From Micrococcaceae bacterium (GTDB taxonomy: Bacteria; Actinomycetota; Actinomycetes; Actinomycetales; Micrococcaceae): DNA of 46,424 nt. Below the pieces are notes generated by a model. The model was not told the DNA's origin, ran no database searches, and saw only the letters and a list, made by a program, of their open reading frames with translations. Below, piece after piece: positions 4,821 to 44,621 of this stretch. Location of the stretch: contig JAODMR010000156.1 of assembly GCA_025465475.1 (NCBI GenBank), positions 1-46,424 on the forward strand. Direction: 5' to 3'. Numbering within the stretch: position 1 is the first letter of the stretch; the number at the start of each line of letters is the position of its first letter. The translations under genes were made by a program, and so were the position numbers.

Positions 4821-4908
4821 GGAAGGTTGTCCGAGCGGCCGATGGAGCTGGTCTTGAAAACCAGTGTGCGGTAACCCCGTACCAAGAGTTCGAATCTCTT
4901 ACCTTCCG
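4821..4908 (+). tRNA. tRNA-Ser(TGA)
   Basis: Class II tRNA of 88 nt with a seven-base acceptor stem (GGAAGGT/ACCTTCC), a long variable arm (GTGCGGTAACCCCGTAC region) and T-loop TTCGAAT. The anticodon TGA is at 4855-4857 in the loop CTTGAAA, closed by CTGGT/ACCAG. The 3' CCA is not encoded. It is divergent from the quinone reductase gene. Confidence 0.96.
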
Positions 4909-4913
4909 CACCC

Positions 4914-11142: not shown

Positions 11143-11184
11143 AAAACGCGGAAGGGCCGCGGCCCGGCAGGCCGCGGCCCTTCC
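11143..11184 (-). terminator. Strong terminator of the eight-gene catabolic operon
   Basis: Perfect 15-bp stem (11150-11164 with 11170-11184), five-base loop, followed on the minus strand by CGCGTTTTCC. It lies just after the RraA-like gene stop and closes the minus-strand operon that begins at 19240. Confidence 0.8.
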
Positions 11185-11230
11185 CTGCGCCGCTGGCGGC
11201 GGCGCATCCCCCTCGCCCGGGAATCCCGGG

Positions 11231-11998
11231 TTAGACGTTGGCGAAGTACGCCTCGATGGCGTCAATGTCCACGCTGCTGTCTGGCGTGTAGCCCAGATTG
11301 GCGTAGTGCTTGCGGCGCGAGGCCATGTCCGCCAGCAGGATGGCCCGGGCGTGCACCGCGACTTCCTGGGCGACGTGGGCGGGCACGACCACGACGCCGT
11401 CATCGTCGGCTCCAACAATGTCGCCGGGGTTCACCTGGACACCGCCGCAGGCGATGGTGGTCTGCGTTTCGATGGCCTGGATGCGGCCGGGGATGATGGT
11501 GCGGCCCCGGTGGCGCGCTACGACAGGGCTGCGCTGGGCGGCGATTTCTGCCGTGTCGCGGCAGTAGCCGTCAGTGATGATGCCGACGGCGCCGCCCAGG
11601 ACGGTGGCCATGGCGTTCTCGGAACCCCAGAAGCCCACCTCGGGTCCGCCACCGGCGTCCATGACGACGACGTGGCCGGGGTTCAGGTTTTCCGGCAACC
11701 GGGCGTGGCTGGTCTCAGCGAACCAGCGGCCGTGGGCGGCGACAATGTCCTCAGTGGTTTCCAGCTTCCACATGGGCTTGTTTGAGGGGACGCAACGGAT
11801 CGTTGCCGCTTCTCCCCAGAAGTTCATGCCCAGCCACAGCGGCCGGACTTCAGGGTCCATCAGCCCGATGTTGAAGTAGCCGATGCCATCAAGGGCATCC
11901 ACCACGTCGCAGACGCGAAGGTGCTGGTAGAGGCTGCCCAAAATGGCCGGATCGGCCTGGCTGTAGGAGACCTGCTTGGAGGAGGTGGTGATCGTCAT
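11231..11998 (-). CDS. RraA-like aldolase/decarboxylase family protein
   Basis: Last gene of the minus catabolic operon; 255 residues, larger than RraA itself (about 160). The family core GSENAMATVLGGAVGIITDG followed by YCRDTAEI carries the Arg-Asp pair that in HMG/CHA aldolases binds pyruvate carboxylate and metal. PGDIVGADDDGVVVVP near residue 190 is the other hallmark. Members cleave 4-hydroxy-4-methyl-2-oxoglutarate-type 4-hydroxy-2-oxoacids or decarboxylate oxaloacetate; here it may release pyruvate from a sugar-acid-like intermediate (inference). AAGGAG lies about twelve bases before the ATG. An 85-bp gap separates it from the amidohydrolase gene. Confidence 0.8.
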   Translation of the reverse strand: MTITTSSKQVSYSQADPAILGSLYQHLRVCDVVDALDGIGYFNIGLMDPEVRPLWLGMNFWGEAATIRCVPSNKPMWKLETTEDIVAAHGRWFAETSHARLPENLNPGHVVVMDAGGGPEVGFWGSENAMATVLGGAVGIITDGYCRDTAEIAAQRSPVVARHRGRTIIPGRIQAIETQTTIACGGVQVNPGDIVGADDDGVVVVPAHVAQEVAVHARAILLADMASRRKHYANLGYTPDSSVDIDAIEAYFANV

Positions 11999-12083
11999 TG
12001 CGGAAAAACTCCTTGTTATTGGTGATCATTCGGTGCTGTTGTGCAGCGTGCCGTGTGCTGCCTTATGGTTTCCGGCTTAGGGG

Positions 12084-12992
12084 TCAGATTCCGATGGCGG
12101 AAGAGTTCGCTGTTGCGGCCTGCACCTCCTTGAAAACGCTGGCGGTGCCGCCGGTCAGGCGGTACCAGTTCTCGGCCGTCCCGCCCCGGACCAGGGACCG
12201 GTCCTGCGGGTCGGAAAACACCTCCGCCACGACGGCGGAAAGATCAGACCAGGCCTGGCCGTACCTGCTCTTGAGCAGCACAACCGGCCAGTTGCTCGCG
12301 AGCATGAGCCGGGAGGCGCCGAAACGGGCACCAACCCATTCCACGTAGGGAAGCAGGTCCGGCCCGCGCCACGAATCCCAGGAGGTGAGGACATCAATTC
12401 CCACGGAGACCTTGACCGCCACCGACGGGTTCCCTGCCAACTCCGCGAGGTGACCGGCCCAGGGTTGCCAGGCTCCGGTGTCCAGTGGAGGCCGGCCCAG
12501 GTGGTCAATGACCATGCGCAGTTCCGGTACGGCGTCGGCCAGCTTTCCGACGGCGGTGATCTGTTCGCTGGTGACCGGGACAACGTCCCACGCCAGTCCC
12601 CGTCGGGCGATTTCCCGAAAGAGGTCCAGGGATTCCGGCCGCACCAGCCAGTCCAGTGGGTCGCGGGCGATCAGGGTGCGGACGCCGCTGAGCTTGGGAA
12701 TGGACATCCGGTCGAGTTCGGCGAGCGCCGCAGCCGGATCCGCCAGGGGCAACCAGGCGACCACGCCGGCCACCAGGTCACTCTGCGCGTACGCCGCGAG
12801 CCGGTCATTCTCGGCCGGTTCGTCGACGGACTGGATGAGGACGGTGGCGTCGATTCCTGCAGCGGCCAGTTCCGGACCGAGGTCCTCCGGCCCGAAGTCC
12901 TCCGCGAGGGCCTGGTGGGAACTGTCCCGCCAAGGCTGGTCCTGGGCAGCGGTGCGCCAAAAATGGTGATGGGCGTCGATGGTTCGGGTCAC
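12084..12992 (-). CDS. COG3618 amidohydrolase, sugar-lactonase-like
   Basis: TIM-barrel hydrolase of 302 residues. It begins with the metal-type motif DAHHHFW (His8, His10), and the segment DFGPEDLGPELAAAGIDATV is typical of L-fucono/L-rhamnono-lactonase relatives. VIDHLGRPP is also a family motif. The late motif reads LASNWPV, whereas I recall most relatives having GSDWPV, so the usual catalytic Asp appears to be Asn. The GTG at 12992 is chosen because it lies four bases after the crotonase-family stop with GGAAAGGA upstream. A longer frame into that gene is unlikely. Opening of a sugar lactone is the best guess; a pyrone-dicarboxylate hydrolase is an alternative. Confidence 0.8.
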   Translation of the reverse strand: MTRTIDAHHHFWRTAAQDQPWRDSSHQALAEDFGPEDLGPELAAAGIDATVLIQSVDEPAENDRLAAYAQSDLVAGVVAWLPLADPAAALAELDRMSIPKLSGVRTLIARDPLDWLVRPESLDLFREIARRGLAWDVVPVTSEQITAVGKLADAVPELRMVIDHLGRPPLDTGAWQPWAGHLAELAGNPSVAVKVSVGIDVLTSWDSWRGPDLLPYVEWVGARFGASRLMLASNWPVVLLKSRYGQAWSDLSAVVAEVFSDPQDRSLVRGGTAENWYRLTGGTASVFKEVQAATANSSAIGI

Positions 12993-12996
12993 GCGG

Positions 12997-13866
12997 TCAG
13001 CGTCCTTTCCAGATGGGGTGTCGGTGTTCCAGGAAGGCTGCGACGCCTTCCCGAAAGTCTTCGCTGCCATAACAGCTCCTGAGCAGGTCATCGGAGTCCA
13101 CGGGCGGGGCCGCGGCCTCCACGCGCCTGCCGGTTTCCTTCAGCGCGGCAAGCGTTAGCGGCGCTCCGGTGCGGACACGCTTCAGCAGCAGGGCTAGTTC
13201 GTCGGACAGGTCCTCCGGGGCGAAGACCTTGTGGACAAAGCCGGCAACGGCGGCCTCCTCGGCCGGTACCAGCGTGGCGGTGAGCAGCATTGCGGTGGTC
13301 CGTCCCACGCCCAGCCGGGCGTGCAGCCGGGCGACGACGGCGGCCGGCAGGCAGTTTCCCAGCGTCCGCGCGATGGGGGCACCGAACACGGCGTCGGGGG
13401 TGGCCAGGACGATGTCGCAGCTTGCGGCCACCGCGAGTCCGGCCCCGACGGCGGGGCCGGACACCACGGCGATGGTGGGGATCGCCAGATCAATCAGGCC
13501 CTGCAGCACTGCCGCCACCCGATGTTCATAGGCCAGTCCCTGTTCCGGGGTGGAGAACCGGGTGAACTGGCTGATGTCGGTTCCGGCGGCGAAAGCACCG
13601 CCGGTACCCTGCAGGACCACTGCCCGGACGGCTGGCCGTTGCCGCAAATAGCCGGGCAGGCCTTCCAGCTCGTCGTACATGCGCCAGGTGAAGGCGTTGA
13701 GCCGGCCGGGATTCGTCAGGGTCACCCACGCCACGTCGTCCTGCTCGATGATGGTCACCGAACCGGGGTCGGCAGCTGCTCCCTCGCCCGCCGTGGCGTC
13801 GGCTACCGTCGTGCCTGCCGCCGTCGTGCCTGCCGCCGGTTTTCCCGCCGGTTTTTCCGCCGTCAT
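12997..13866 (-). CDS. Crotonase-fold protein (enoyl-CoA hydratase/isomerase family) lacking both usual glutamates
   Basis: A 289-residue CoA-binding enzyme of the crotonase superfamily. The oxyanion-hole segments are present: GTGGAFAAGTDISQF (residues 87-101) and SGPAVGAGLAVAASCDI (136-152). Where classical hydratases carry Glu in GGGCEL and GxPEI, this protein reads GAGLAV and GAPIA, so a simple hydratase mechanism is unlikely. The ATG at 13866 overlaps the CaiB stop (ATGA), which fixes the start. The first 35 residues are an Ala/Gly/Thr-rich tail with internal repeats (AAGTTAAGTT). It is coupled to CaiB, so it likely acts on the CoA ester made by that transferase. Confidence 0.82.
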   Translation of the reverse strand: MTAEKPAGKPAAGTTAAGTTVADATAGEGAAADPGSVTIIEQDDVAWVTLTNPGRLNAFTWRMYDELEGLPGYLRQRPAVRAVVLQGTGGAFAAGTDISQFTRFSTPEQGLAYEHRVAAVLQGLIDLAIPTIAVVSGPAVGAGLAVAASCDIVLATPDAVFGAPIARTLGNCLPAAVVARLHARLGVGRTTAMLLTATLVPAEEAAVAGFVHKVFAPEDLSDELALLLKRVRTGAPLTLAALKETGRRVEAAAPPVDSDDLLRSCYGSEDFREGVAAFLEHRHPIWKGR

Positions 13867-15074
13867 GCTGATTGATCTGCGGCGGCCGGGAGCGGCCGTC
13901 GCGCTTCGGCGAGCACCTGCTGCGTGTCGGCGCCCAACAGGGGTGGTGCCTTGCGGATGACGGGCGGGGTCCGGTGCAGCCGTATGGGTGAGGACAGCAC
14001 CGGAACCCTCCCTTCCACCGGATGGTCGACGGCGGAGACCATGCCCCGTGCCTTGACGTGCGGGTCGCCGTCGAGGACCTGGGCGTAGTTCCGGATGGGT
14101 CCGGCCGGAACGCCCGCCTCGAGCAGGGCTGCGACCCACTCGTCCGTGTTTCTGCGGGTGAAGATGGGCTGCAATTCCCCGATGAGCTCCGCCCTGTTCG
14201 CCATCCGCCGGTTGTTGTCCAGAAACCGTTCGTCACTGAGCAGGTCCCCGGCGTCAAGCACGGCACAGAGTTTGCGCCACAGCTTTTCGTTGTTCGCCCC
14301 GATGGTGATGTAACCGTCCCGCGTGGCGATGGCCTGGTAGGGCGCCGACATGCGGTTGGCTGACCCCAACGGCTGGGGAACTTCCCCCGTGGCCCAGTAT
14401 TCGGTGGATTCCCACACGGACAGGGCCAGGGCCGTCTCGAACAGGGAAGTTTCGAGGTACTGGCCCAGCCCGTCCTTGGATCGGGCGATGACAGCCGAAA
14501 GGATTCCCACCGCACAGAACAGCCCGGCGCCCAGGTCGGCGACCGGGAGGCCGCACTTGACCGGCGCTCCCCCCGGTTCCCCGGTGATGCTCATGACGCC
14601 CGTCATGGCCTGGGCAACCAGGTCGTAGCCAGGGTAATTCGCGTAGGGCCCGGTCTGGCCGAACCCGGAGATGCTGGCGTAAATCAGGCCCGGATTCAGG
14701 TCCTTGAGGGTGTCGTAGTCGATTCCCAGCCGGGCGGTCACTCCGGGCCGGAAGTTCTCAATCACCACGTCAGCCGTTCGGACCAGGGCGTAGAATTCCG
14801 CGCGGTCCGCCTCGTCCTTGAGGTCGAGACAGACGCTGCGCTTGTTCCGGTTCAGGGACAGGAAGGCACGGCTGTCCTCGCCTTTAACCGCGTAACCCCA
14901 GGACTTGCGGGTCTGGTCGCCGGATTCCGGGTTTTCGATCTTGACGACGTCGGCGCCAAGGTCTCCCAGCATCATGGTGCAGAAGGGGCCCGACATGACC
15001 TGCGTCAGGTCCAGGACGCGGATTCCGGTGAGGGCACCGGGAGGTCCCGGCGGCTGGTTGATAGGGCTTGTCAT
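13863..15074 (-). CDS. CaiB/BaiF family III CoA-transferase
   Basis: A 403-residue enzyme that moves CoA between carboxylic acids through an aspartyl-CoA anhydride. Conserved parts visible: LDLTQVMSGPFCTMMLGDLG (residues 21-40), ADVVKIENP, SLNRNKRSVCLDL, the catalytic Asp180 in GLPVADLGAG (FRC Asp169 equivalent), and GLGQYLETSLFETALAL. It is the first of two coupled CoA genes, its stop overlapping the next start by four bases. It begins 28 bases after the binding-protein gene. The acid activated is unknown; a CoA-ester branch inside a sugar-transporter operon is unusual. Confidence in the family is high, in the substrate nil. Confidence 0.9.
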   Translation of the reverse strand: MTSPINQPPGPPGALTGIRVLDLTQVMSGPFCTMMLGDLGADVVKIENPESGDQTRKSWGYAVKGEDSRAFLSLNRNKRSVCLDLKDEADRAEFYALVRTADVVIENFRPGVTARLGIDYDTLKDLNPGLIYASISGFGQTGPYANYPGYDLVAQAMTGVMSITGEPGGAPVKCGLPVADLGAGLFCAVGILSAVIARSKDGLGQYLETSLFETALALSVWESTEYWATGEVPQPLGSANRMSAPYQAIATRDGYITIGANNEKLWRKLCAVLDAGDLLSDERFLDNNRRMANRAELIGELQPIFTRRNTDEWVAALLEAGVPAGPIRNYAQVLDGDPHVKARGMVSAVDHPVEGRVPVLSSPIRLHRTPPVIRKAPPLLGADTQQVLAEARRPLPAAADQSA

Positions 15075-15102
15075 GGTGAAGTCTCCCTGCTGGTGGTGGT
15101 AA

Positions 15103-16443
15103 CTACTGGCCGAGCTTGGCGTTGGCCTCGGTGAAGAACTTGTCCACCGCCTGATCGATGCTCATGCGGCCATAGGAAACTTCCTGGTAGGCCCGCTTGA
15201 AGGAGTCCTCAAAGACGGACTGGTAGCCCGCGGGGAAGACAATGGTGGGCGGGTTCTTGGCGATGATCTGCTTGTACAGCTCCAGCTCGTGCTTCTTGGT
15301 GGCAGAGAGTGCCGGATCGGCCAGCTGTGCGTCGAGCACCTTCGTGTTCGTGGCGGCACCGTTATCCGAGGCGAAGCTCTTGCCAGCTTCCAAATCGTTG
15401 GTGAAGAAGTTGACGAAGGCGGCGGCTGTCGGAATGTTGTTGCAGTTCGCGGAGATGGCGAAACCGGAGGGGTAGAGCGCGTTGCCCGAGCCCTTGGGTC
15501 CGCTGGGGAACGGGATGGTGGTCATTTCCTGGCCGGGCTTGGCGCCGGTGAGGGTTTTGGTGGCCGGGGTGAGGGCGTTGCCGGGCAGCGTGTCAGTCAT
15601 GCTCTCGCCGTGGGCCAGGTAGCTCTGGTCGGGGGCGGTCGGTTCCTCAGCACTCTTTTGCGCCGAGATGGTGACACCCTTTTGCCGCAGGTCATCCCAC
15701 ATGGCCCAGTACTGCTTCAGGTCGTCCTTGCTGAAGCCCAGCTTGCCGTCCTTGTCGAACAGGGTCTTGCCATTGGCCTGGGTCCAGCCGATGAAGTAGT
15801 TGGGCCGGCCGCCACCAATGTTGGCCGCCGTGACGCCCTCCGGAAGCTTTGCCTGAGCGGTGGTCAGGTACTGGGTGAAGTCGGACCAGTTGTAGCCGTC
15901 CGCCGGCAGGCCTACTCCCGCCTGGTCGGCCAAGGTGGTGTTGACTCCGACGGCGTCGTAGGCGGCACCGTACGGCAGGAAGTAGAGTTTCCCGTCGGTT
16001 CCGCGGCCGGCGTCCACCACGGCCTTGGGGATGTCGCTGATGTCGATGGCGCCGGAGTCGACCATGCCGTCCAGCGGCAGGAGCACGTTGCGCTTGGTGT
16101 AGTCGTTGATCTGGCGGCCCTGCAGCTGTACCACGCACGGGAGGTTCTTGCTGGCGGCCTGGACGTTGAGCTTGTCGAAGTACTTGGCGAAGTCGGCGGA
16201 CTGGCGGTCTACGGTGACCCCCGCGTTCTTTCCGGTGAACATGTCGATCACGGCGTTGGTCTTTTGGTTGCGGGAATCCCCGCCCCACCAGGACACCTGG
16301 ATATCGCCCTTGACGTCTCCCTTACCGTCCGGAGCGGAGGTGCCAGCCTGGTTGGCGGTGACGGAGGTTCCACCGCCGCAGCCGGCCAGCAGGATGGCCG
16401 TTGCAGCAGCGCCGGCGAGGAGGGTGAATCGTGTGCTTTTCAC
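15103..16443 (-). CDS. Sugar-type ABC transporter substrate-binding lipoprotein
   Basis: Secreted lipoprotein of 446 residues that captures the operon substrate outside the membrane. The signal peptide TRFTLLAGAAATAILLAGC ends in a lipobox (LLAGC, Cys22). The mature part is a class I/cluster B-like extracellular solute-binding protein (IQVSWWGGDSRNQKTNAVID at its start). A GTG at 16443 with AAAGG nine bases upstream gives the cleanest signal peptide and lies 19 bases after the permease stop. An ATG at 16461 (six residues longer) is the alternative. No ATPase gene is present nearby, as in many actinobacterial sugar importers that share one MsiK-type ATPase. Confidence 0.9.
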   Translation of the reverse strand: MKSTRFTLLAGAAATAILLAGCGGGTSVTANQAGTSAPDGKGDVKGDIQVSWWGGDSRNQKTNAVIDMFTGKNAGVTVDRQSADFAKYFDKLNVQAASKNLPCVVQLQGRQINDYTKRNVLLPLDGMVDSGAIDISDIPKAVVDAGRGTDGKLYFLPYGAAYDAVGVNTTLADQAGVGLPADGYNWSDFTQYLTTAQAKLPEGVTAANIGGGRPNYFIGWTQANGKTLFDKDGKLGFSKDDLKQYWAMWDDLRQKGVTISAQKSAEEPTAPDQSYLAHGESMTDTLPGNALTPATKTLTGAKPGQEMTTIPFPSGPKGSGNALYPSGFAISANCNNIPTAAAFVNFFTNDLEAGKSFASDNGAATNTKVLDAQLADPALSATKKHELELYKQIIAKNPPTIVFPAGYQSVFEDSFKRAYQEVSYGRMSIDQAVDKFFTEANAKLGQ

Positions 16444-16462
16444 GTGTTGTGCCTTTCGCATT

Positions 16463-17350
16463 TTATTTGAGTCCGGTGGTGGCGACGCCTTCAAGAAGGA
16501 GCCGTTGGGAGACGATGAAGAACCCGACGATCGGTGCCAGGGACAGCACCGACATGGCGAACAGCGCGCCGTAGGAGCTTTCGCCGGTGGCGTCGAGGAA
16601 GGAGTTGAGGCCCAACGGCACTGTCCACAGATCGGTGCGGTTCAGGTACAGCAAGGGGCCCAGGAAGTCATTCCACGTGTTGATGAACGTGAACATGGCC
16701 GTCGTGCCGATGGCGGGCATGGCCAGCGGCATGATGATGCGGCTGAAGATCCGGAAGTGTCCGCAACCGTCCAGTCGGGCGGATTCATCCAATTCCCGCG
16801 GCAGGCTACGAATGAACTGGACCATCAGGAAGATGAAGAAGGCGTCCACGCCGAACCAGTGCGGCACAACGAGCGGAAGGTAGGTGTTGATCCATTCCAG
16901 CTTGTTGAACAGGATGTACTGCGGCACCAGGGTCACCTGGGAAGGCAGCAGCATGGTGCCCAGCAGCAGCGCGAACAGGAATTTCTTACCCGGAAAGGAC
17001 AACCGGGCAAACGCGTAGGCGGTGACGGAGCAGGCCAGCAGGTTGCCGGCGATCGAGAGCACGGTGACCAGGAACGAATTCAGGAAGTAGCGGGAAAAGT
17101 TCAGGCTGCCGGAGGTCCACCCGTTGACGTAGTTGTCCAGGGTGAAGTTGGGCGAGAACAGGCCGAGTCCGTTGAAGATCTCGTTCTCGGGCCGGAACGA
17201 GGCTGAAACCATCCAGATCACCGGGTAAAGCATGATGACCAGGGCGCAGATGATCAGGGCGTGCCGGATCACGGCGGCCAGGACGGGGTTGGTGGTTTTC
17301 CGGCGGGGATAGATCTGCAGGGGTGCTTTGGGCAGGGTGGTGGTAGTCAT
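16463..17350 (-). CDS. MalG-type ABC sugar permease
   Basis: Inner-membrane permease of 295 residues with about six membrane segments. The first is HALIICALVIMLYPVIWMVS and the last LAPIVGFFIVSQRLLLEG. The cytoplasmic EAA loop that contacts the ATPase reads ELDESARLDGCGHFRIFSRI. The C-terminus GVATTGLK is typical of MalG/CUT1 permeases. The ATG shares one base with the stop of the MalF-type gene (TGATG), so the start is firm and translation coupled. Together with the MalF-type partner and the lipoprotein it forms a CUT1-like importer lacking its own ATPase. Confidence 0.92.
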   Translation of the reverse strand: MTTTTLPKAPLQIYPRRKTTNPVLAAVIRHALIICALVIMLYPVIWMVSASFRPENEIFNGLGLFSPNFTLDNYVNGWTSGSLNFSRYFLNSFLVTVLSIAGNLLACSVTAYAFARLSFPGKKFLFALLLGTMLLPSQVTLVPQYILFNKLEWINTYLPLVVPHWFGVDAFFIFLMVQFIRSLPRELDESARLDGCGHFRIFSRIIMPLAMPAIGTTAMFTFINTWNDFLGPLLYLNRTDLWTVPLGLNSFLDATGESSYGALFAMSVLSLAPIVGFFIVSQRLLLEGVATTGLK

Positions 17351-18354
17351 CAGGACTCGTCTCCGTAATGGACCCAGAAGCGGGCCGTCCAGAAAAAGAA
17401 GGCTGAAAAGGCAGCCAGGACAGCGAGCAGGAGCCAGGCCATCGCGGAGGCGTACCCCATGTCGAGCTGGGCGAAGCCACGCTGGTACAGGTAGAGGGTG
17501 TAAAAGAGGGTGGAGTCGGCTGGTCCGCCCGTTCCGCCGCTCACCACGTAAGCGCCGGTGAAGGACTGGAATGCGTGAATGGTGCCCATGAGGGCGTTGA
17601 AGAAGATCAGCGGAGTCATCAGGGGCAGGGTGACGCTGAAGAAGCGTCGCAGGGTGCCCGCCCCATCCATCGCCGCTGCTTCCGAGAGTTCCTTGGGGAT
17701 CTGCTTCAAGCCGGCCAGGAAGATGATCATCGTTGATCCGAAGGCCCACAGGGTCAGGGTGATGATGGTGGTTAAGGCGTCATCGGGGTTACCCACCCAG
17801 CTCCCGTGCTGAATGCCGAACACGGCCAGTGCCTTGTTCAGGATGCCGTCGGCCCCGAACACCAGTCGCCACAGCGCGGCAATGGCGACACTGGCGCCGA
17901 GCAGGGAGGGGACGTAGAACAGCGCCCGATACCCGGTCAGGAACTTCATGCTCTTGTTCAGCAGCAACGCCAGCAGCATGGACACGATCAGCAGCAGCGG
18001 CACGGACACGACAACGTAGATGAGCGTGACGGAGACCGACTTCAGGTAGCGCGGGTCCGCCGTGAACATTTGGACGTAGTTCCGGAATCCGACCCAGCGC
18101 GGGTCACTGAGCAGGTCGTAGCTGGTGAAGGACAGGTAGAGGGAGTAGATCATCGGGCCCAGAGTGAACCCGGCCAGGCCGAGCAGCCAGGGAATCAGGA
18201 ACACGTAGGCCGCGATGGCCTCGCGGGTCTTGCTTTTCATGTTTCGGGTTCCGCGGGCGCCGTGGGCCGGCCGGGCGCCGCCGTCGGACTTGTCCGCCAG
18301 CACCTCCGGTCGGACGGCGTTGGTAAGGGGCCGGGCCACAGGGGCATCACTCAT
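17350..18354 (-). CDS. MalF-type ABC sugar permease
   Basis: Inner-membrane permease of 334 residues. About 45 cytoplasmic residues precede the first membrane segment (AIAAYVFLIPWLLGLAGFTL), and roughly six segments follow. The EAA motif is ELSEAAAMDGAGTLRRFFSV. WVGFRNYVQMFTADPRYLKS is a typical CUT1 signature. Its ATG overlaps the end of the reductase gene by eight bases (GATGAGTGATG). An internal ATG at residue 39 (MKSKTREAI) could give a shorter protein, but the first one fits the overlap. Confidence 0.92.
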   Translation of the reverse strand: MSDAPVARPLTNAVRPEVLADKSDGGARPAHGARGTRNMKSKTREAIAAYVFLIPWLLGLAGFTLGPMIYSLYLSFTSYDLLSDPRWVGFRNYVQMFTADPRYLKSVSVTLIYVVVSVPLLLIVSMLLALLLNKSMKFLTGYRALFYVPSLLGASVAIAALWRLVFGADGILNKALAVFGIQHGSWVGNPDDALTTIITLTLWAFGSTMIIFLAGLKQIPKELSEAAAMDGAGTLRRFFSVTLPLMTPLIFFNALMGTIHAFQSFTGAYVVSGGTGGPADSTLFYTLYLYQRGFAQLDMGYASAMAWLLLAVLAAFSAFFFWTARFWVHYGDES

Positions 18355-19240
18355 CGGTGTTGCCTTTCATCGGGTGTTCGGATGCTGTCGCATCGGCGTG
18401 CTGTTCGACCACCTCTGGAAGGAGCTGGGCGAGCAACGCGGCGAAGGGAACCTCGACGCCGGCGGAACGGGCCGCCATGGTTACTTCCCACAGGTCCTTG
18501 CTCCAGGGGCGCTGCCGTACCGGTGTGCCCAGCCGGTTGTAATCGGCTGCCACGTCGTCAAAGAACCCCCAGTTCCGTGCCACCCAGGTGTCTCCGGTGC
18601 TGCTCTTCACCGCCTCAAGGACCTTGTTGTCGGGGACCCCGTAGGCGGCCGTCAGGCGCAAAGCTTCATGGGTTCCGGCGAGGGCGGCGAACATCATCAA
18701 CTGGTTCGCGAGCTTGGTGGCGGAGCCGCTGCCCGGGGCGCCCAGGTGCAGGACCGAGGACGCCATATCGTCCAGAAGGGGACGTACCTGCTCCAGAACG
18801 TCGGCGGATCCCCCCACCATCAGGGTCAGATCGCCTGTCCTGGCCCGGCCGGCGCCGCCGCTGACCGGCGCGTCGAGGAATCCGACCCCCGCGGCCTCGC
18901 ACTCGGCGGCAAGGTTCTTGGCGGTGGCCGGGAGGATGGTGCTGTGGATGATCACGTGCTGGTCCGCTGACAGCTTCGGCAGCAGACCCTCGGTGCCCAG
19001 CAGCAGGGCTGTCACCGCGTCGTCGTCGGGAACCGCGAGGCAGATGATGCCGCAGCGGGCCAGGTCCAGGGGCTCGGCGGCTATGTCGGCGCCGGCATCG
19101 GCCAGGGCGGTCAGGCGCTCGACCTGGGTGTCATAGACCGTCACCTGCCACTCGTGTTCCAACAGATTCAGTGCCATGCCCTGGCCCAGGTTGCCCACGC
19201 CGATGAAGCCGATACTTCGGCCCTCACCACTCTGCTTCAC
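18347..19240 (-). CDS. NAD(P)-dependent beta-hydroxyacid dehydrogenase (tartronate-semialdehyde reductase/3-hydroxyisobutyrate dehydrogenase family)
   Basis: First gene of the minus operon; 297 residues. The N-terminal Rossmann motif IGFIGVGNLGQGMALNLLE starts at residue 10, the substrate motif DAPVSGG is at 123-129, and the catalytic Lys176 is in GSATKLANQ. Members reduce semialdehydes such as tartronate semialdehyde, or oxidise 3-hydroxyacids. The start is a GTG at 19240 with a perfect GGAGG five bases upstream; the longer open frame runs through the operator region and is rejected. It is divergently placed from gntR, with the operator palindrome between them. The real substrate is unknown. 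Confidence 0.88.
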   Translation of the reverse strand: MKQSGEGRSIGFIGVGNLGQGMALNLLEHEWQVTVYDTQVERLTALADAGADIAAEPLDLARCGIICLAVPDDDAVTALLLGTEGLLPKLSADQHVIIHSTILPATAKNLAAECEAAGVGFLDAPVSGGAGRARTGDLTLMVGGSADVLEQVRPLLDDMASSVLHLGAPGSGSATKLANQLMMFAALAGTHEALRLTAAYGVPDNKVLEAVKSSTGDTWVARNWGFFDDVAADYNRLGTPVRQRPWSKDLWEVTMAARSAGVEVPFAALLAQLLPEVVEQHADATASEHPMKGNTDE

Positions 19241-19323
19241 TGTCCACCTCCTCGTAGTCGTCAAAGCGTTTCCAGCGGTGAATGAACCGTTTGGGCGTTT
19301 CATCCTGAGTACGCTGTGTGACG

Positions 19324-19353
19324 TTGCTAACAAAAAGAACGTCCTGATATTGT
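19324..19353 (+). promoter_or_regulatory. Candidate gntR promoter overlapping the operator
   Basis: TTGCTA (19324-19329), an 18-base spacer and TATTGT (19348-19353). The -10 lies inside the left arm of the palindrome at 19348-19375, so bound GntR would block it. This predicts a leader of about 80 nt before the ATG at 19440. Confidence 0.5.
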
Positions 19354-19375
19354 CTACAGCATCTTGTAGACAATA
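19348..19375. promoter_or_regulatory. GntR/FCD operator palindrome
   Basis: Perfect 11-base arms (TATTGTCTACA and TGTAGACAATA) separated by GCATCT. Each arm contains a TTGTNNACA core resembling GntR-type half-sites. It lies in the shared control region of the reductase operon and gntR, so it very likely controls both directions. Confidence 0.75.
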
Positions 19376-19439
19376 AGCAATAGACTTTTTGGAGAAGTTT
19401 CGGGCAGACTGCCCGAAGGACAGCGAAAGGGATCAACCC

Positions 19440-20162
19440 ATGATCGACAACACCGCCAGCGGCCCCGCGGCAGGTGGAGGCGCCAGCCCGCTGTCCTCCC
19501 TGGTGCATCCGCCCAGCCTCGTCACCCTGGCCGCTGACGCCATCCGCAAGAAAATCCTTTCGGGCGAATACGAACCCGGCGAGCGGCTCCTGGAGGAACG
19601 GCTGACCGAGGAACTGAGCATCAGCAGGCCTCCACTGCGGGAAGCGTTCCGCACCCTGGAAAATGAGGGGCTTATCGTTACCCGCCCGCGGCGTGGGTCG
19701 TTCGTCTCGACGCTGACTGACAAGGATGTGTACGAGATCCTCACCCTGCGTTCCGTGCTGGAGCGGATGGCTTTCGAGTTGGGCATTCCGGTCAAGAACC
19801 CCGCCCTGCTTGAGCCCGCACGGTCCGCCCTGCTGGAAATGGAGCGCTGCGCCGCGGAGAAGGATCGTGGGGCCCTGGTCCTGGCCGGCTACAACTTCCA
19901 CTACGCCCTGGTGGGCATCGCTGATCACCAGCGGCTCAACCATGCCTACGCTTCGGTCCAGCGGCAGCTGCTGCTCTGCATGGCCCGTAACCTGATCGCC
20001 CGGGAAACGTTCTACGAAGACCTCGACCACCATGCGGCCCGGCACCGGCACCTGCTGGAGCTCGTGGAATCAGGGGACCGGGACGCGGCCTTGGCCGAAT
20101 TGGCCGTGCACGGCGAGCGCTCGTTTGAAAGCATGGCCAACAACAGCGCCGAAACCGGTTAG
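19440..20162 (+). CDS. GntR-family transcriptional regulator, FCD subfamily
   Basis: Probable local regulator of the catabolic island; 240 residues. The N-terminal winged helix (about residues 28-95) has the GntR pattern IRKKILSGEYEPGERLLEER followed by LSISRPPLREAFRTLENEGL. The C-terminal FCD ligand domain shows the helical pattern with His residues of a metal/carboxylate site (FHYALVGIADHQRLN; HHAARHRHLLELVESGD). FCD regulators often bind sugar acids or other small carboxylates, which agrees with the neighbouring enzymes. The ATG at 19440 has AAAGGG upstream. It is followed by two enzyme genes on the same strand. Confidence 0.92.
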   Translation: MIDNTASGPAAGGGASPLSSLVHPPSLVTLAADAIRKKILSGEYEPGERLLEERLTEELSISRPPLREAFRTLENEGLIVTRPRRGSFVSTLTDKDVYEILTLRSVLERMAFELGIPVKNPALLEPARSALLEMERCAAEKDRGALVLAGYNFHYALVGIADHQRLNHAYASVQRQLLLCMARNLIARETFYEDLDHHAARHRHLLELVESGDRDAALAELAVHGERSFESMANNSAETG

Positions 20163-20205
20163 CTCCCTGCTCGTTCCCCACCCTCAAACCCTGAAAGGCA
20201 CCCCC

Positions 20206-21396
20206 TTGATATCCTCTGTTCCTCCCTCCGCCCTGCTTCCCGATGACCCGCGGGCGCTCCTGGTCGGGCGCATCTTCGACCCGGCCGAGGACGGACCCAG
20301 CGTCGTCGCCGTCCGCGGCGCCGAACTGGTGGACCTGACCGCCGTCGAGCCGACGGTTTCCGCCCTGCTGGAACGGTCCGACCTGCTCGAACTGGTCCGG
20401 ACCGCCACACCGCGCAAGACCTGGCCGCTGCAGGAAGTACTGGAGGCGACCCTGGAGCAGGACCCGCAGCGGCCCCGACTCCTGGCGCCGGTGGACCTGC
20501 AGGTGCTCAAGGCCGCAGGCGTCACCTTCGTGCACAGCATGCTCGAGCGCGTGATCGAGGAGCGGGCGGCCGGCAACCGCGACCGGGCCGAGCAGATCCG
20601 CGCAGAACTGGACCAGGTCATCGGCGGCGCCATCGGCAACGTCCGCCCCGGCAGCCCCGAGGCCGCTGCGGTCAAGGACGTGCTGATCCGGGAAGGACTG
20701 TGGTCCCAGTACCTGGAAGTAGGCATCGGACCCGACCCGGAGATCTTCACCAAGGCACCGGTGCTCTCAGCTGTCGGTACGGGTGCAGGCATCGGCGTGT
20801 TGTCCCGTTCCACCTGGAACAACCCCGAGCCGGAGCTCGCCCTGGCTGTCACCGCAGCCGGGCAGCCGGTCGGTGCCATGCTGGCCAACGACGTGAACCT
20901 GCGCGACTTCGAGGGCCGCAGCGCCCTGCTTCTGACCGAGGCCAAGGACAACAACGCCTCCTGTGCCCTGGGTCCGTTCATCAGGCTGTTCGACGAACAC
21001 TTCACCCTGGATTCCGCCCGGCAGCTGGACATTCACCTGCAGGTCCATGGGACCGACGGTTTCGAACTGACCGGGGCCAGTTCCATGTCCGCGATCAGCC
21101 GTGACCTTATCGAGCTGGTCCAGCACGCCTGGGGTCCGCATCACCAGTACCCCGACGGCTTTGTGCTGTTGACCGGAACACTGTTCGCGCCCACGCAGGA
21201 CCGCGGGGAGCCCGGCGCCGGTTTCACGCATTCCGACGGCGACACGGTATCGATCGCGACGCCCGCCCTGGGCACCCTGGTCAACACGGTCAGCTCCTCC
21301 GAATCGGCGCCGCCCTGGACCTTCGGCATCGGCGCGCTGATGCGCAACCTCGCGCTGCGCGGACTGCTGACCGCCGGCCAGGAAGCAACAGTATGA
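20206..21396 (+). CDS. FAH-family 2-keto-3-deoxy-pentonate dehydratase-like protein (XylX-like)
   Basis: A 396-residue protein of the fumarylacetoacetate hydrolase superfamily. Segments VDLQVLKAAGVTFVHSMLER, NDVNLRDFEGRSALLLTEAK and DNNASCALGPFIRLFDE closely match, from memory, Caulobacter XylX, the 2-keto-3-deoxy-D-xylonate dehydratase of the Weimberg pathway. Metal ligands are probably in NPEPELALAV and the NDVNLRD region. It would form 2-oxoglutarate semialdehyde or a homologue. No ATG or GTG fits; TTG at 20206 has AAAGG seven bases upstream and lies 43 bases after gntR. A semialdehyde dehydrogenase for the next step is not in the window. Confidence 0.8.
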   Translation: MISSVPPSALLPDDPRALLVGRIFDPAEDGPSVVAVRGAELVDLTAVEPTVSALLERSDLLELVRTATPRKTWPLQEVLEATLEQDPQRPRLLAPVDLQVLKAAGVTFVHSMLERVIEERAAGNRDRAEQIRAELDQVIGGAIGNVRPGSPEAAAVKDVLIREGLWSQYLEVGIGPDPEIFTKAPVLSAVGTGAGIGVLSRSTWNNPEPELALAVTAAGQPVGAMLANDVNLRDFEGRSALLLTEAKDNNASCALGPFIRLFDEHFTLDSARQLDIHLQVHGTDGFELTGASSMSAISRDLIELVQHAWGPHHQYPDGFVLLTGTLFAPTQDRGEPGAGFTHSDGDTVSIATPALGTLVNTVSSSESAPPWTFGIGALMRNLALRGLLTAGQEATV

Positions 21397-22343
21397 GGGT
21401 CGTCGTCACCGATCAGGCCTTCGGAAACGTGGACCGGGAGCACGCCACCGCCCGGGAGCACGGCGCCTCGTTCGCCCACCACCAGTGCAGCACCGAAGCG
21501 GACACCCGCCAGGCGGTGCAGGGAGCCGACGTCGTGCTCGTCAACTTCGCTCCGATTACCGCTGCAGTGCTGCAGGAAATGTCGCCAGGTGGCGTGGTCA
21601 TCCGGTACGGCATCGGCTACGACAACGTGGATCTGGACGCCGCCCGGGAGGCTGGCATCGCGGTGTGCAATGTCCCCGATTACGGGCCTGACACCGTGGC
21701 TGACCATGCCGTCAGTTGCCTGCTGGCCCTGCTACGCAAGCTCAAGGAACTCGACGCGAGGGTCCGCAGCGATGGCTGGCTGCGGCCCAACGACCTGGGT
21801 CCACTGCCCGGCTTCGCGCAAACCACCGTGGGCCTGATCGGAACCGGCCGGATTGGCCGCGCCGTTGCCGCCCGGCTGCGTCCCTTTGGCTTCACCGTGC
21901 TGGCCCACGACCCGTTCGTTCCGGCGGAGGCACTGGAACCCCTGGGCATCGAAGCGGTCAGCCTTGATGAGCTGTTGAGCCGGTCCCACGCCGTATCCCT
22001 GCACGCGCCCCTGACGGAGGGGAACCACCAACTCATCAATGCCGCCACCATCGCAACGATGAAGCCGCGGGCCGTGCTGGTGAACACCTCCCGTGGCGGC
22101 CTGGTCGACCAGGAGGCGCTCGCCGACGCGCTGGAAGGCGGACGGCTGGGTGCTGCCGCATTGGACGTCTTCGACCCGGAGCCCCTGGCGCCAGACTCCC
22201 GGCTCCGCGCCCTGTCCAACGTGCTGCTGACACCTCACGCGGCCTTCTTCTCGGACGATTCCCTGGCCAACCTGCAGCGGCTCGCCGCGGAGGAGGCAGG
22301 GCGCCACCTGACCGGCCAGCCGCTGCGCTGCCGGGTGAATTAG
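21393..22343 (+). CDS. D-isomer-specific 2-hydroxyacid dehydrogenase
   Basis: A 316-residue NAD(P)-dependent enzyme that interconverts 2-ketoacids and D-2-hydroxyacids. The Rossmann motif VGLIGTGRIGRAVAARL begins at residue 146. Catalytic residues are Arg234 (NTSRGGLVD), Glu263 (DVFDPEPL) and His282 (TPHAAFF). It overlaps the XylX-like gene by four bases (ATGA). In the context of the island it may reduce or oxidise a short 2-ketoacid such as glyoxylate or hydroxypyruvate (inference). It is the last gene of the plus operon, closed by the inverted repeat at 22362-22407. Confidence 0.9.
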   Translation: MRVVVTDQAFGNVDREHATAREHGASFAHHQCSTEADTRQAVQGADVVLVNFAPITAAVLQEMSPGGVVIRYGIGYDNVDLDAAREAGIAVCNVPDYGPDTVADHAVSCLLALLRKLKELDARVRSDGWLRPNDLGPLPGFAQTTVGLIGTGRIGRAVAARLRPFGFTVLAHDPFVPAEALEPLGIEAVSLDELLSRSHAVSLHAPLTEGNHQLINAATIATMKPRAVLVNTSRGGLVDQEALADALEGGRLGAAALDVFDPEPLAPDSRLRALSNVLLTPHAAFFSDDSLANLQRLAAEEAGRHLTGQPLRCRVN

Positions 22344-22361
22344 CCCCCCAGAATCGCGATG

Positions 22362-22407
22362 ATGGCCCCGTTGGCGTTCCCTTGACCGGGACCGGCAACG
22401 GGGCCAT
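22362..22407 (+). terminator. Inverted repeat ending the gntR operon
   Basis: Perfect 12-base arms (ATGGCCCCGTTG at 22362-22373, CAACGGGGCCAT at 22396-22407) with a 22-base loop. It follows the dehydrogenase stop. Its right end overlaps the candidate -10 (CATACT, 22405-22410) of the next gene. There is no U-tract. Confidence 0.5.
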
Positions 22408-24018: not shown

Positions 24019-24106
24019 GGAGACGTGCCAGAGCGGCCGAATGGGCTTCACTGCTAATGAAGTGTGGGGCACAACTCCACCGGGGGTTCAAATCCCCCCG
24101 TCTCCG
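24019..24106 (+). tRNA. tRNA-Ser(GCT)
   Basis: Class II tRNA of 88 nt. Acceptor GGAGACG/CGTCTCC, anticodon stem CTTCA/TGAAG with anticodon GCT at 24053-24055, long variable arm (TGTGGGGCACAACTCCAC region) and T-loop TTCAAAT. The 3' CCA is not encoded. Confidence 0.96.
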
Positions 24107-24111
24107 CGTTT

Positions 24112-24202: not shown

Positions 24203-26359
24203 TCAGCCGGCCTGGGCCAGGACCAGCGGCAGGACGGCGCCAGCGCCAGCGGAACGCACGGCCTTGCCGGCGATTGTGACCGTCCACCGGCTGTCCACCA
24301 GGTCATCGATCAGGAGCACGCTCCGGCCTGCGGCAGGAGCGAGGGCCGCGGCAAGCTCGGGACCCACCACCAGGCGCTCCCAGACCCCTGCCAGCCGGTA
24401 GGCGCTGTTTCCGCCGCGGCCTCCCGTGGGACCACCATGCGCCAGCGACAGTTCCCCCGCGTACGGAATCCGGCCGATCTCCGAAATGCCCTGCGCCAGG
24501 GACTGCACCAGGCGGGGCTTGCTTCGGCTCGGCAGGGAGACGACGGCTGCCGGCCGGCCTTGCCCGGACCACCCTGCCTGCCCCCAGTCCCGCAGCACGC
24601 CAACGCAGGCCTGCAGCAACGCCTGGGTTATTTCGGTGTCCTCCGCTCCGGCAGCGAACACTTCACGCAGGGTCCCGCCCCAGCCCAGGTCTGTCAGCCG
24701 GGCCAGGGCACGCCCCTCAGAGTTCAGGTCCCCGGCGGACAATTTGCCTTTCACCGGCACCCCCAGCCGGTCCATGCCGCTGGGCCATTGCAACCGCGGC
24801 TCCAGGGGGATGCCTGCCCGTTCCAGGGTGGCGCCTGCGGACTGCACGGCACCGGGATCGATGGACTCCTCAAACCACCGGCCGGCGCAGTTGTCGCAGC
24901 GGCCGCAGGGAGCGGCCGTCTCATCATCCAGGGCGGAGGTCAGATACTCCATCCGGCAGCCGCCGGTCTGTTCGTAGACCACCATGGAGTCCTGCTCCTC
25001 GACCCTGGCCGCGGCAATGCGTGCGTACCGCTCCGAGTCGTAGGACCAGGGCTGGCCGGTGGCCCGCCACCCGCCACCGACCCGTTCCACCGCGCCGTCA
25101 ACGGCGAGCACCTTCAGCAGCAGCTCCAAGGGCGTCCGGCGCAGGTCCACCCGTGCTTCCAGTGCGACAGTGGAGAGCGCGCCTCCGGCCTCGGCCAACG
25201 CTGTGAGGACCGCTGAAGCCTTCTCTTCGGATGGCATTGACGCGGTGGCAAAGTACTGCCAGATGTCGCGGTCTTCGCTGCCCGGCAGAAGCAGCACATC
25301 AGCGTTGGCGGAGCCACGGCCGGCACGGCCCACCTGCTGGTAGTAGGCCACCGGTGAGGACGGCGCTCCCAGGTGCAGCACAAAGCCCAAATCCGGCTTA
25401 TCGAAGCCCATGCCAAGCGCCGAGGTGGCAACCAACGCCTTGACCTCGTTGTCCTTGAGCTGCTGCTCCGCCCGTTCCCGGTCGGCCGGGTCGGTGCGCC
25501 CGGTGTAGGCCAGCACGCGGTGTCCGGCGTCGGCCAGCAGGCGCGCCGTATCCTCGGCGGCGGACACGGTGAGTGTGTAGATGATGCCACTGCCGGGCAG
25601 GTCGGCCAGGTGCGTCAGCAACCAGCCCAGCCGGCCCCGGGAATCAGGCAGCCGGAGCACGCCCAGACGCAGGGAGGCCCTCGCCAGCGGTCCGCGGATG
25701 GTGAATACGCCTTCCCCGAGTTGTTCCTCGATGTCCGCGACCACCCGGGAGTTGGCGGTCGCCGTCGTAGCAAGCACCGGCACGGTTTCCGGCAACTGCG
25801 CGATCAGGTCGGCAATGCGCCGGTAGTCAGGCCGGAAGTCGTGTCCCCAGTCGGAAATGCAGTGCGCCTCGTCGATCACCAGCAATCCGGTCCGTCGGAT
25901 CAGTTCCGGCAGCTGGGTCTCGCGGAACGACGGATTGGTCAGTCGCTCGGGCGAGACCAGCAGCACGTCCACCTCGTTCGCTGCGAGCGCGGCGTGGATG
26001 GTGTCCCACTCGGTGGCGTTTGCCGAGTTGATGGCCATGGCCCGCACCCCCGCGCGCTCGGCGGCAGCGACCTGGTCACGCATCAGGGCCAGCAGCGGGG
26101 AGACGATCAGCGTCGGGCCGGCACCCCGCGCGCGCAGCAACAGGGACGCCACGAAGTACACAGCCGACTTGCCCCACCCGGTGCGCTGGACCACCAGGGC
26201 ACGCCGTCCACCGTCAACCAGCGCCTCGATCGCTTCGTACTGGCCGTCGTGAAACTGGGCGTCGGGGGATCCGACCAGGTCCTGCAGCATTCCCCGCGCC
26301 TGCTCGTAGGTGCTGCTGGCGGCAGGGGAAACGGCATTTGAGAGCTGGGGGGATGTCAT
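24203..26359 (-). CDS. recQ: RecQ-family ATP-dependent DNA helicase with C-terminal phosphoribosyltransferase-like region
   Basis: A 718-residue 3'-5' DNA helicase for repair and recombination. Walker A is VQRTGWGKSA (near residue 58) and the box DEAH is at 163-166, followed by CISDWGHDFRPDYRRI. Motif VI is YYQQVGRAGRG. A zinc-binding set CRMEYL...CGRCDNC is present. There is no HRDC domain. Instead the C-terminus carries ISEIGRIPYAGEL and SVLLIDDLVDSRWT (681-693), the PRPP-loop pattern of phosphoribosyltransferases such as ComF. Such RecQ-PRTase proteins are known in actinobacteria, but the role of the extra domain is unknown. The ATG at 26359 is preceded by GATACT with a six-base gap. Confidence 0.92.
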   Translation of the reverse strand: MTSPQLSNAVSPAASSTYEQARGMLQDLVGSPDAQFHDGQYEAIEALVDGGRRALVVQRTGWGKSAVYFVASLLLRARGAGPTLIVSPLLALMRDQVAAAERAGVRAMAINSANATEWDTIHAALAANEVDVLLVSPERLTNPSFRETQLPELIRRTGLLVIDEAHCISDWGHDFRPDYRRIADLIAQLPETVPVLATTATANSRVVADIEEQLGEGVFTIRGPLARASLRLGVLRLPDSRGRLGWLLTHLADLPGSGIIYTLTVSAAEDTARLLADAGHRVLAYTGRTDPADRERAEQQLKDNEVKALVATSALGMGFDKPDLGFVLHLGAPSSPVAYYQQVGRAGRGSANADVLLLPGSEDRDIWQYFATASMPSEEKASAVLTALAEAGGALSTVALEARVDLRRTPLELLLKVLAVDGAVERVGGGWRATGQPWSYDSERYARIAAARVEEQDSMVVYEQTGGCRMEYLTSALDDETAAPCGRCDNCAGRWFEESIDPGAVQSAGATLERAGIPLEPRLQWPSGMDRLGVPVKGKLSAGDLNSEGRALARLTDLGWGGTLREVFAAGAEDTEITQALLQACVGVLRDWGQAGWSGQGRPAAVVSLPSRSKPRLVQSLAQGISEIGRIPYAGELSLAHGGPTGGRGGNSAYRLAGVWERLVVGPELAAALAPAAGRSVLLIDDLVDSRWTVTIAGKAVRSAGAGAVLPLVLAQAG

Positions 26360-26365
26360 GGTTCC

Positions 26366-26371
26366 AGTATC
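26366..26371 (-). promoter_or_regulatory. -10 hexamer (GATACT) of leaderless recQ
   Basis: Minus-strand GATACT ends six bases before the recQ ATG. The recQ and manB promoters share the 121-bp divergent gap. Confidence 0.4.
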
Positions 26372-26467
26372 CCAGCCTCCCCGACAGCCCATCGGAGCGG
26401 AGCTGCACTGTGGAAAAGCGGACCGCGGCGCCGCTTATCCCTCCGCTGCCAAGCGGGTTCCGCACGT

Positions 26468-30544: not shown

Positions 30545-30620
30545 GCGTGCGTAGCTCAACGGATAGAGCATCTGACTACGGATCAGAAGGTTGGGGGTTC
30601 GAATCCCTTCGCGCGCACCA
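30545..30620 (+). tRNA. tRNA-Arg(ACG)
   Basis: A 76-nt tRNA including an encoded CCA (30618-30620). The acceptor stem GCGTGCG/CGCGCGC has one T-G pair. Anticodon ACG (30578-30580) lies in the loop CTACGGA, closed by TCTGA/TCAGA. A34 is the substrate of TadA, also encoded in this window, giving inosine that reads CGU, CGC and CGA. Confidence 0.96.
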
Positions 30621-44612: not shown

Positions 44613-44621
44613 CCAAAGAAC

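Follow-up and report, generated by a model that had tools for sequence, protein, structure and literature searches.

Background

The described systems closest to the locus reported here are catabolic routes for sugar acids and, for one part of it, the carnitine operon. The E. coli carnitine (cai) operon reportedly comprises CaiB, CaiD and CaiE, and recycling of coenzyme A (CoA) by CaiB is part of the logic of that operon. The lactonases of the L-fuconate and L-rhamnonate pathways belong to cog3618. RraA-like class II aldolases are marked by an Arg-Asp motif, and RraA-type aldolases act on 4-hydroxy-2-keto acids. For the non-phosphorylative pentose pathways, PMC6336799 reports two FAH/MhpD-superfamily proteins, one of them of COG3970, that dehydrate 2-keto-3-deoxypentonates. 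Here we analyze a 46,424-nucleotide contig of a Micrococcaceae bacterium (GenBank assembly GCA_025465475.1, contig JAODMR010000156.1; hereafter the window, meaning this whole stretch), in which positions 11231-22343 hold an eleven-gene cluster encoding a CUT1-type importer, a GntR regulator, enzymes of sugar-acid families, and a CaiB-type CoA-transferase next to a crotonase-fold protein.

We tentatively favor the explanation that GntR here controls an operon for the uptake and breakdown of a lactone-forming compound resembling a sugar acid, in which the CaiB/crotonase pair would replace the dehydratase by way of a CoA ester. That the operon is co-regulated, of sugar-acid type and contains an obligatory CoA-ester step is, taken together, a much safer claim than any single reaction in that scheme. 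Gene content, conserved linkage, a shared operator and family residues are read from the sequences themselves.

Gene content and conservation

An original prediction, made from the letters of the window, had described eleven genes in two divergent operons around one palindrome. Family models and coordinates bear this out, and all eleven genes belong to the families that it named. Eight lie on the minus strand and three on the plus strand. The minus-strand operon runs from 19240 down to 11231 and encodes a HIBADH-family beta-hydroxyacid dehydrogenase (18347-19240; PF03446 and PF14833; best solved relatives 3-hydroxyisobutyrate dehydrogenases), CUT1 permease 1 (17350-18354; PF00528; UgpA-like, below the cut-off), CUT1 permease 2 (16463-17350; PF00528; ATG at 17350), a CUT1-type solute-binding lipoprotein (15103-16461; PF13416/PF01547 on 15103-16458), a CaiB-type class III CoA-transferase (13863-15074; PF02515, 451 bits), the crotonase-fold protein (12997-13866; PF00378, 140.7 bits), a lactonase-like amidohydrolase (12084-12992; PF04909, 114.9 bits) and an RraA-like aldolase of 255 amino acids (11231-11998; PF03737, 97.6 bits). 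Spacing within the operon is -8, -1, 4, 28, -4, 4 and 85 nt, the third gap becoming 1 nt with the preferred ATG of the binding protein at 16461. The other preferred starts are GTG at 19240 (HIBADH), GTG at 12992 (amidohydrolase, likely), TTG at 20206 (FAH protein) and ATG at 13866 (crotonase), the last overlapping the CaiB stop so that the two genes share 4 nt. The plus-strand genes run from 19440 to 22343 and encode a GntR/FCD regulator (19440-20162; PF00392 and PF07729), an XylX-like FAH-family protein (20206-21396; PF01557, 36.1 bits; no NCBIfam model) and a D-2-hydroxyacid dehydrogenase (D2HDH) of the phosphoglycerate dehydrogenase/glyoxylate reductase family (21393-22343; TIGR01327, 226.9 bits, below the cut-off of 454; solved relatives).

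Relatives were fetched through the crotonase-fold protein by aligning ten homologues and scanning genome_contigs, where the best 80 of at least 467 relatives were kept (at least 595 pattern matches). Gene counts per locus rest on tblastn with the eleven window proteins. Six actinobacterial loci among the best 80 hold GntR, RraA, HIBADH, both permeases, the binding protein, CaiB, crotonase and amidohydrolase together. They come from six families: Kineococcus indalonis (L026), Arthrobacter sp. B1805 (L027), Pseudonocardia sp. MH-G8 (L028), Cellulomonas aerilata (L029), Phytoactinopolyspora halotolerans (L030) and a Microbacteriaceae metagenome-assembled genome (L033). Identity of RraA ranges from a distant 38% in L030 to 87% in L033. 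L027 and L033 have close copies of the FAH/D2HDH pair (58-69%), and tblastn found neither gene in the stretches searched of L026 and L028. Rearranged versions occur outside Actinomycetota, with nine of the families in Devosia geojensis (L064) and eight in Microvirga ossetica and M. lotononidis (L018, L022); a Roseinatronobacter locus (L020) has HIBADH, amidohydrolase, GntR, CaiB and crotonase plus TRAP genes. Across phyla, RraA is 57-63% and CaiB 58-59% identical, and the amidohydrolase and HIBADH, at 24-34%, are less conserved, so those two may have been recruited separately.

A second search used RraA, a query free of the CoA genes. Matches at E <= 1e-40 were found in 5 of 395 family genomes, namely that of the window and four more, and all four of the others (4/4) carry CaiB and crotonase in the same cluster. 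One of these (L158, genome G749) has all eleven genes in the order of the window at 63-93% identity, and another (L160, G698) has all eleven in the order of L027. A third (L159, G609) shows the same identities as L027 and is almost surely the same genome. In the fourth (L161, G757), a 41% RraA accompanies the importer, HIBADH, CaiB, crotonase and amidohydrolase, with no GntR, FAH or D2HDH match in the stretch. Among plasmid records, 21 have an RraA match, close (60-63%) in only two Microvirga records, both with the CoA pair. The search for conserved clusters that the original prediction had suggested thus returned the same families together in the six actinobacterial loci and the complete set in L158 and L160.

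These results bear on whether CaiB and crotonase could be unrelated passengers of a sugar-acid operon. The pair is found in other contexts too, and most loci were fetched by crotonase, whose presence there is by construction; the RraA-based search, independent of the CoA genes, nevertheless finds the pair beside RraA in 4/4 family genomes, the two plasmid records whose RraA is close have it as well, and the operator described below is shared among loci. We regard an accidental association as highly improbable.

The cluster is rare among close relatives. Crotonase matches at E <= 1e-60 were confined to the window's own genome among 197 family genomes, a smaller draw than the 395 above. At E <= 1e-45, 11 of 394 class genomes matched, one of which (G395), besides the window, exceeded 50% identity. 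RraA at E <= 1e-40 was found in 1 of the 394 class genomes, the window's own. Four other genomes of the same genus gave no crotonase (E <= 1e-60) or RraA (E <= 1e-40) match, and a scan of viral_contigs returned 8 pattern matches, none of them a relative. The alternative that RraA is a common gene lying here by accident is disfavored by its counts (1/394 class genomes, 5/395 family genomes, two close plasmid records). Judged from the loci compared, recurrence of the cluster is beyond chance, and its patchy spread suits horizontal transfer. The word "island" in the original prediction was not sustained: no attachment-like repeats were found around the cluster, and no flanks were conserved in same-genus genomes (three stretches of ~19 kb and one of 4.9 kb), so that no empty site is readable and no junction demonstrable.

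Additional genes accompany some copies. An iron-containing alcohol dehydrogenase (Fe-ADH) and a second-type RraA are encoded at L029:10759-16708, L026:10750-14901 and L161:2978-12593, with an SSADH-like gene in L029 and L161; in L026 and L029 these are joined by a second crotonase-fold gene and a hexapeptide (PaaY/CaiE-like) gene. Together, the additional genes suggest a sub-type or a paralogous branch of the route.

Putative operator and regulation

The palindrome TATTGTCTACA-GCATCT-TGTAGACAATA occupies 28 bp at 19348-19375, with 11-bp arms, between the starts of HIBADH and GntR. Its right half contains the 10-bp sequence TTGTAGACAA, which occurs exactly ahead of the cluster in 7 of 10 actinobacterial loci (the window, L026, L028, L029, L030, L033 and L158) and with one mismatch in two more (L027, L160). 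In L028 it precedes RraA, and another gene separates GntR from the operon. Expected exact occurrences are at most 4.2e-5 per stretch (first-order model; L158 not among the stretches computed), which rules out a chance origin.

Exact copies were found in 8 of 137 loci: the window's copy, L026, L028, L029, L030, L033, L018 and L060. The copy in L018 is probably no operator, because it lies inside an annotated binding-protein gene. In L060 (Comamonadaceae) it stands ~90 nt ahead of the CaiB match, in a locus with CaiB, crotonase and a 46% GntR, which links the CoA pair with a GntR of this type in another phylum as well. In the genome of the window, ATTGTAGACAAT occurs at five sites with one mismatch and at no exact site. 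The regulator itself is 61-74% identical beside the cluster in the six loci and 61-85% in three further stretches, one of which is the second copy of L027. Since the putative operator is conserved ahead of the operon, the CoA pair looks co-regulated with the cluster, and nothing points to the separate regulation of the CoA genes that would have told against the original prediction.

The CoA-transferase and crotonase-fold pair

CaiB has the class III family fold and keeps Asp180, which we take to be the catalytic Asp of class III CoA-transferases, in 75 of 75 aligned rows. Its best NCBIfam models are the succinate-glutarate, mesaconate and oxalate CoA-transferases, all below cut-off, and its closest solved relatives are formyl-CoA transferase 10uh and succinate-hydroxymethylglutarate CoA-transferase 9br7.

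Among 25 NCBIfam models shown for the crotonase-fold protein, only NF004796 passed (287.7 bits, cut-off 272), a subfamily model named 'enoyl-CoA hydratase' with no further assignment. The two catalytic Glu of enoyl-CoA hydratase correspond to rat Glu144/Glu164. With 5zai, a 3-hydroxypropionyl-CoA dehydratase carrying both, as the reference, Glu was found at either column in 0 of 96 rows (the window and 95 homologues above 150 bits, one row with a stop removed; L158-L161 lie outside this count). The search patterns used on genome_contigs cover neither Glu column, so this absence was not forced by the fetch; ranking homologues by similarity to the window crotonase does favor like sequences. Invariant in the 96 rows are Glu121, Asn178, Thr175, Asn64 and Arg255, with Tyr71 in 95 (subtract 7 for the start at 13866). 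With both catalytic Glu missing, 'enoyl-CoA hydratase' would be a misnomer, and the family name should not be taken as a guide to the reaction. The original prediction had included a CoA-ester branch. The part that placed the pair in the pathway stood, as the pair lies inside the operon, behind a conserved operator and beside RraA in 4/4 genomes; a hydratase role for the crotonase-fold protein is not supported, both Glu being missing.

The same absence would fit an enzyme that decarboxylates or hydrolyzes a CoA ester of hydroxymalonyl type, as methylmalonyl-CoA decarboxylase likewise lacks the pair. The methylmalonyl-CoA decarboxylase model NF008506 scores 105.6 bits, far under its cut-off of 257, and we consider this alternative improbable.

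Pathway enzymes and proposed route

The RraA-like protein has the PF03737 fold and the Arg-Asp motif (residues 147-148), which was also found in 12 of 12 RraA copies read from nine loci. Copies at or above 57% identity were seen only in clusters of this type. The amidohydrolase scores 125.4 bits against the L-fucono-1,5-lactonase model (cut-off 400), with 4dlf as its best solved relative. The FAH protein scores 398 bits against 9kkt, and its Glu179 aligns with Glu114 of the archaeal enzyme 2q18, which we take to be catalytic; we also take the protein to be a member of COG3970. It is, on these alignments, a probable 2-keto-3-deoxypentonate dehydratase. Behind the FAH/D2HDH pair, L033 and L158 carry a 2,5-dioxovalerate/alpha-ketoglutaric semialdehyde dehydrogenase-like gene (502 bits in L033, cut-off 750; the L158 copy is 70% identical to that of L033).

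A second RraA in the genome of the window, at G000:C104 (L128:4767-8769), is an FAH-RraA fusion (PRK12764) near an HpaE gene. This locus likely serves homoprotocatechuate breakdown, and with that fusion and neighbor its RraA was set aside as a candidate member of the pathway.

Queries for dehydratases of the IlvD/EDD, enolase and DHDPS types matched nothing in the window, and of 13 distinct loci of this type only L018 gave a match, an enolase-type gene on the opposite strand. Consumers of 2-keto-3-deoxy acids are thus present and the dehydratase queries unmatched, from which we infer that CaiB and the crotonase-fold protein may supply that step.

In the proposed route, the amidohydrolase would open a lactone to the free acid, to which CaiB would transfer CoA. 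The crotonase-fold partner would then work on the CoA ester at C2-C3, most likely removing water to give a 2-keto-3-deoxy acid; the thioester would acidify C2-H and so ease loss of the C3 hydroxyl. CaiB would recycle CoA from the product to the next substrate. RraA could cleave the 2-keto-3-deoxy acid by an aldol reaction to pyruvate and an aldehyde, the FAH dehydratase could take it to alpha-ketoglutarate semialdehyde, and the two hydroxyacid dehydrogenases may handle short products. The CoA ester could be an entry step instead of a late intermediate. The original prediction had also suggested a branched, deoxy or methylated sugar acid as substrate, and the analysis turned up nothing for or against this. 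What we infer here is the class of substrate, the sequence of steps and, most of all, the reaction of the CaiB/crotonase pair.

Other settings of the CaiB/crotonase cassette

A CaiB match lies at most 3 kb from crotonase in 62 of the best 80 genome_contigs loci. Over genome_contigs, plasmid and whole-genome loci, we compared 43 loci with a CaiB at least 50% identical (group A; duplicate L004 dropped) with 31 below that value (group B), counting neighbors within 8 kb with no background control; Microvirga HIBADH at 29-30% falls below the threshold and the L028 GntR lies beyond 8 kb. Given as group A/group B, regulators were GntR in 23/15 and LysR in 12/0 loci, and the pathway genes were amidohydrolase in 10/0, HIBADH in 9/3, RraA in 9/0 and CUT1 permease in 9/0. 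A YdiJ-like oxidase was counted in 9/15, a BhcA-like aminotransferase in 12/15, a TTT binding protein in 19/7, TRAP genes in 6/9, SSADH in 2/7, Fe-ADH in 2/0 and PaaY/CaiE-like genes in 7/5. By gene content there are at least three settings of the cassette, which may be called the sugar-acid type, the YdiJ/BhcA type and the LysR/TTT type. In a CaiB tree of 75 rows, seven actinobacterial rows of sugar type grouped together (97/79; six of them 99/88), and four proteobacterial ones stood at the base of the sister clade. The sugar-type label required 3 changes on this tree against a shuffled mean of 10.6, and 0 of 500 shuffles were as low; the clustering is partly mere host relatedness.

The YdiJ/BhcA setting was seen in many beta-proteobacteria (L036, L038, L044, L046, L054, L092, L098, L102 and others), where genes for a TRAP or TTT importer, a YdiJ-like FAD 2-hydroxyacid dehydrogenase and a BhcA-like aspartate-glyoxylate aminotransferase are linked to the cassette; it perhaps belongs to another carboxylate pathway. 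On Sphingobium indicum B90A plasmid pSRL1 (L139, 52318-73412) the pair lies among genes for a PQQ-dependent dehydrogenase, cytochrome c, Fe-ADH, SSADH, amidohydrolase and GntR. In Caballeronia (L017:8860-10768, L023:8877-10768) a crotonase of the same subfamily stands directly behind an annotated tartrate dehydrogenase, with no adjacent CaiB.

Hydroxycinnamoyl-CoA lyase provides a retro-aldol precedent for a different reaction, in which the crotonase-fold protein would cleave C2-C3 of a 2,3-dihydroxyacyl-CoA to glycolyl-CoA and an aldehyde or glyoxylate, with CaiB recycling CoA from glycolyl-CoA. The BhcA-like aspartate-glyoxylate aminotransferase (12/43 group A and 15/31 group B loci), the YdiJ-like 2-hydroxyacid oxidase (9/43 and 15/31) and one Caballeronia crotonase copy near glycolate oxidase genes are consistent with such products; RraA and FAH, taken as 2-keto-3-deoxy acid enzymes, would be left unexplained in the cluster. 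We judge cleavage unlikely when taken by itself. Equally to be weighed is that the CoA pair handles a late dicarboxylate or hydroxy-dicarboxylate, formed by oxidation of an alcohol end, from a lactone through hydroxyacid and semialdehyde, and then made a CoA ester, with no sugar acid proper. The resemblance of CaiB to dicarboxylate CoA-transferases points that way, as do the genes for an Fe-ADH and an SSADH-like protein that adjoin the cluster in L029 and L161 (an Fe-ADH alone in L026), the same two gene types with CaiB/crotonase on pSRL1, an Fe-ADH with the pair in Variovorax, and the frequent occurrence of TTT and TRAP genes close to the pair, while the CUT1 importer with its YesO-like binding protein and the FAH and RraA proteins indicate polyhydroxy acids. 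This alternative is rather doubtful; both it and cleavage are nearly as likely as the dehydration scheme.

Several findings weigh against dehydration by the CoA pair. With the Glu pair missing, dehydration would need other residues, and the nearest characterized relatives of CaiB act on dicarboxylates or small acids. The dehydratase queries (one IlvD, seven enolase-superfamily proteins and one DHDPS) include a single DHDPS, a weak net for its family. Outside the cluster, the genome of the window contains one IlvD/EDD match and 10 to the enolase-superfamily C-terminal domain, and a dehydratase could therefore act in trans. An alpha-ketoglutarate semialdehyde dehydrogenase was not found in the window, and the best match in its own genome is 40% identical and is HpaE by TIGR02299, over the cut-off. 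In L029 and L030 the FAH is distant (29-34%) and the D2HDH moderately similar (41-43%), and L161 has no operator-like site (best 3 mismatches within the 546 nt before RraA). A CaiB match over 120 bits within 3 kb is lacking in 18 of the 80 crotonase loci, and therefore crotonase does not always need this CaiB nearby. Finally, RraA and amidohydrolase are found in 0 of 31 group B loci, where YdiJ-like and BhcA-like genes each occur in 15.

A broader idea, possible though doubtful, is that a crotonase-fold subfamily whose active site is new dehydrates or cleaves sugar acids after their conversion to CoA esters, taking the place of the Fe-S and Mg enzymes of known non-phosphorylative routes, and that several phyla reuse the CaiB/crotonase cassette for other 2,3-dihydroxy acids.

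Importer and neighboring genes

The importer consists of two CUT1 permeases and a binding protein, whose best solved relative is YesO 5z6b (103.5 bits). No ATPase gene was found within the operon, as had been predicted. A UgpC/MsiK-type ATPase is encoded elsewhere in the genome (C100:6282-7304), beside a trehalose-phosphatase gene; it is 55% identical to Microvirga UgpC and scores 475.6 bits against the UgpC model NF008653 (cut-off 432). By sequence, this is the arrangement of an importer with a shared ATPase, and the CUT1 ABC importer would borrow the MsiK-type protein for uptake. In L018, a UgpC-type ATPase gene is annotated in the locus.

Elsewhere in the window, 24203-26392 on the minus strand encodes a RecQ-family helicase of 729 amino acids (TIGR00614, 224.3 bits, cut-off 219.8), with a C-terminal stretch that we take to resemble a phosphoribosyltransferase motif. 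Four tRNA genes lie within the 46 kb (4821-4909, 24019-24107, 30545-30620 and 44526-44615), three of which are tRNA-Ser genes with different anticodons.

Comparison with known systems

In open-access full-text literature, judged by titles and the beginnings of abstracts, we found neither a characterized homologous cluster, which could have overturned the original prediction, nor a description of this cluster or its CoA esters. The cluster may mark an undescribed degradation route, as its CoA step is absent from the sugar-acid pathways compared. If the CoA pair does replace a dehydratase, carbohydrate breakdown would gain a new chemical logic, which relies on thioester activation where other routes use metal catalysis. 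Such a replacement would also assign a role to a widespread crotonase subfamily whose members carry the annotation enoyl-CoA hydratase despite lacking the catalytic residues. Even if it does not occur, the search for the substrate has well-defined targets in the conserved cluster, its operator and the portable cassette of two genes.

The importer resembles the MsiK-energized CUT1 importers of Streptomyces (PMC4890002, PMC6167110), which likewise have no ATPase of their own and an MsiK/UgpC-like ATPase encoded elsewhere. With the L-fuconate/L-rhamnonate lactonase pathways the cluster has the amidohydrolase family in common, at a model score of 125 against a cut-off of 400. It is like the cai operon in that a CaiB-type CoA-transferase adjoins a crotonase-fold partner and PaaY/CaiE-like genes lie within 8 kb in L026, L027, L029 and L030; it differs in its distant CaiB (108.6 bits against the L-carnitine CoA-transferase model, cut-off 413), in a partner without the Glu pair, and in its sugar-acid context. 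The non-phosphorylative pentose pathways (Weimberg, Dahms and Route III of Herbaspirillum huttiense; PMC6336799) have the FAH-type 2-keto-3-deoxypentonate dehydratase and the lactonase family in common with the cluster, and the alpha-ketoglutarate semialdehyde dehydrogenase-like gene likewise occurs in L033 and L158. Unlike those pathways, the cluster has no pentonate dehydratase of the three queried types and has CaiB, the crotonase-fold protein, RraA and HIBADH in addition. We regard the cluster as conserved, apparently co-regulated and, as far as the literature was searched, undescribed; we place it within non-phosphorylative sugar-acid catabolism, as a new variant, and not in a category of its own.

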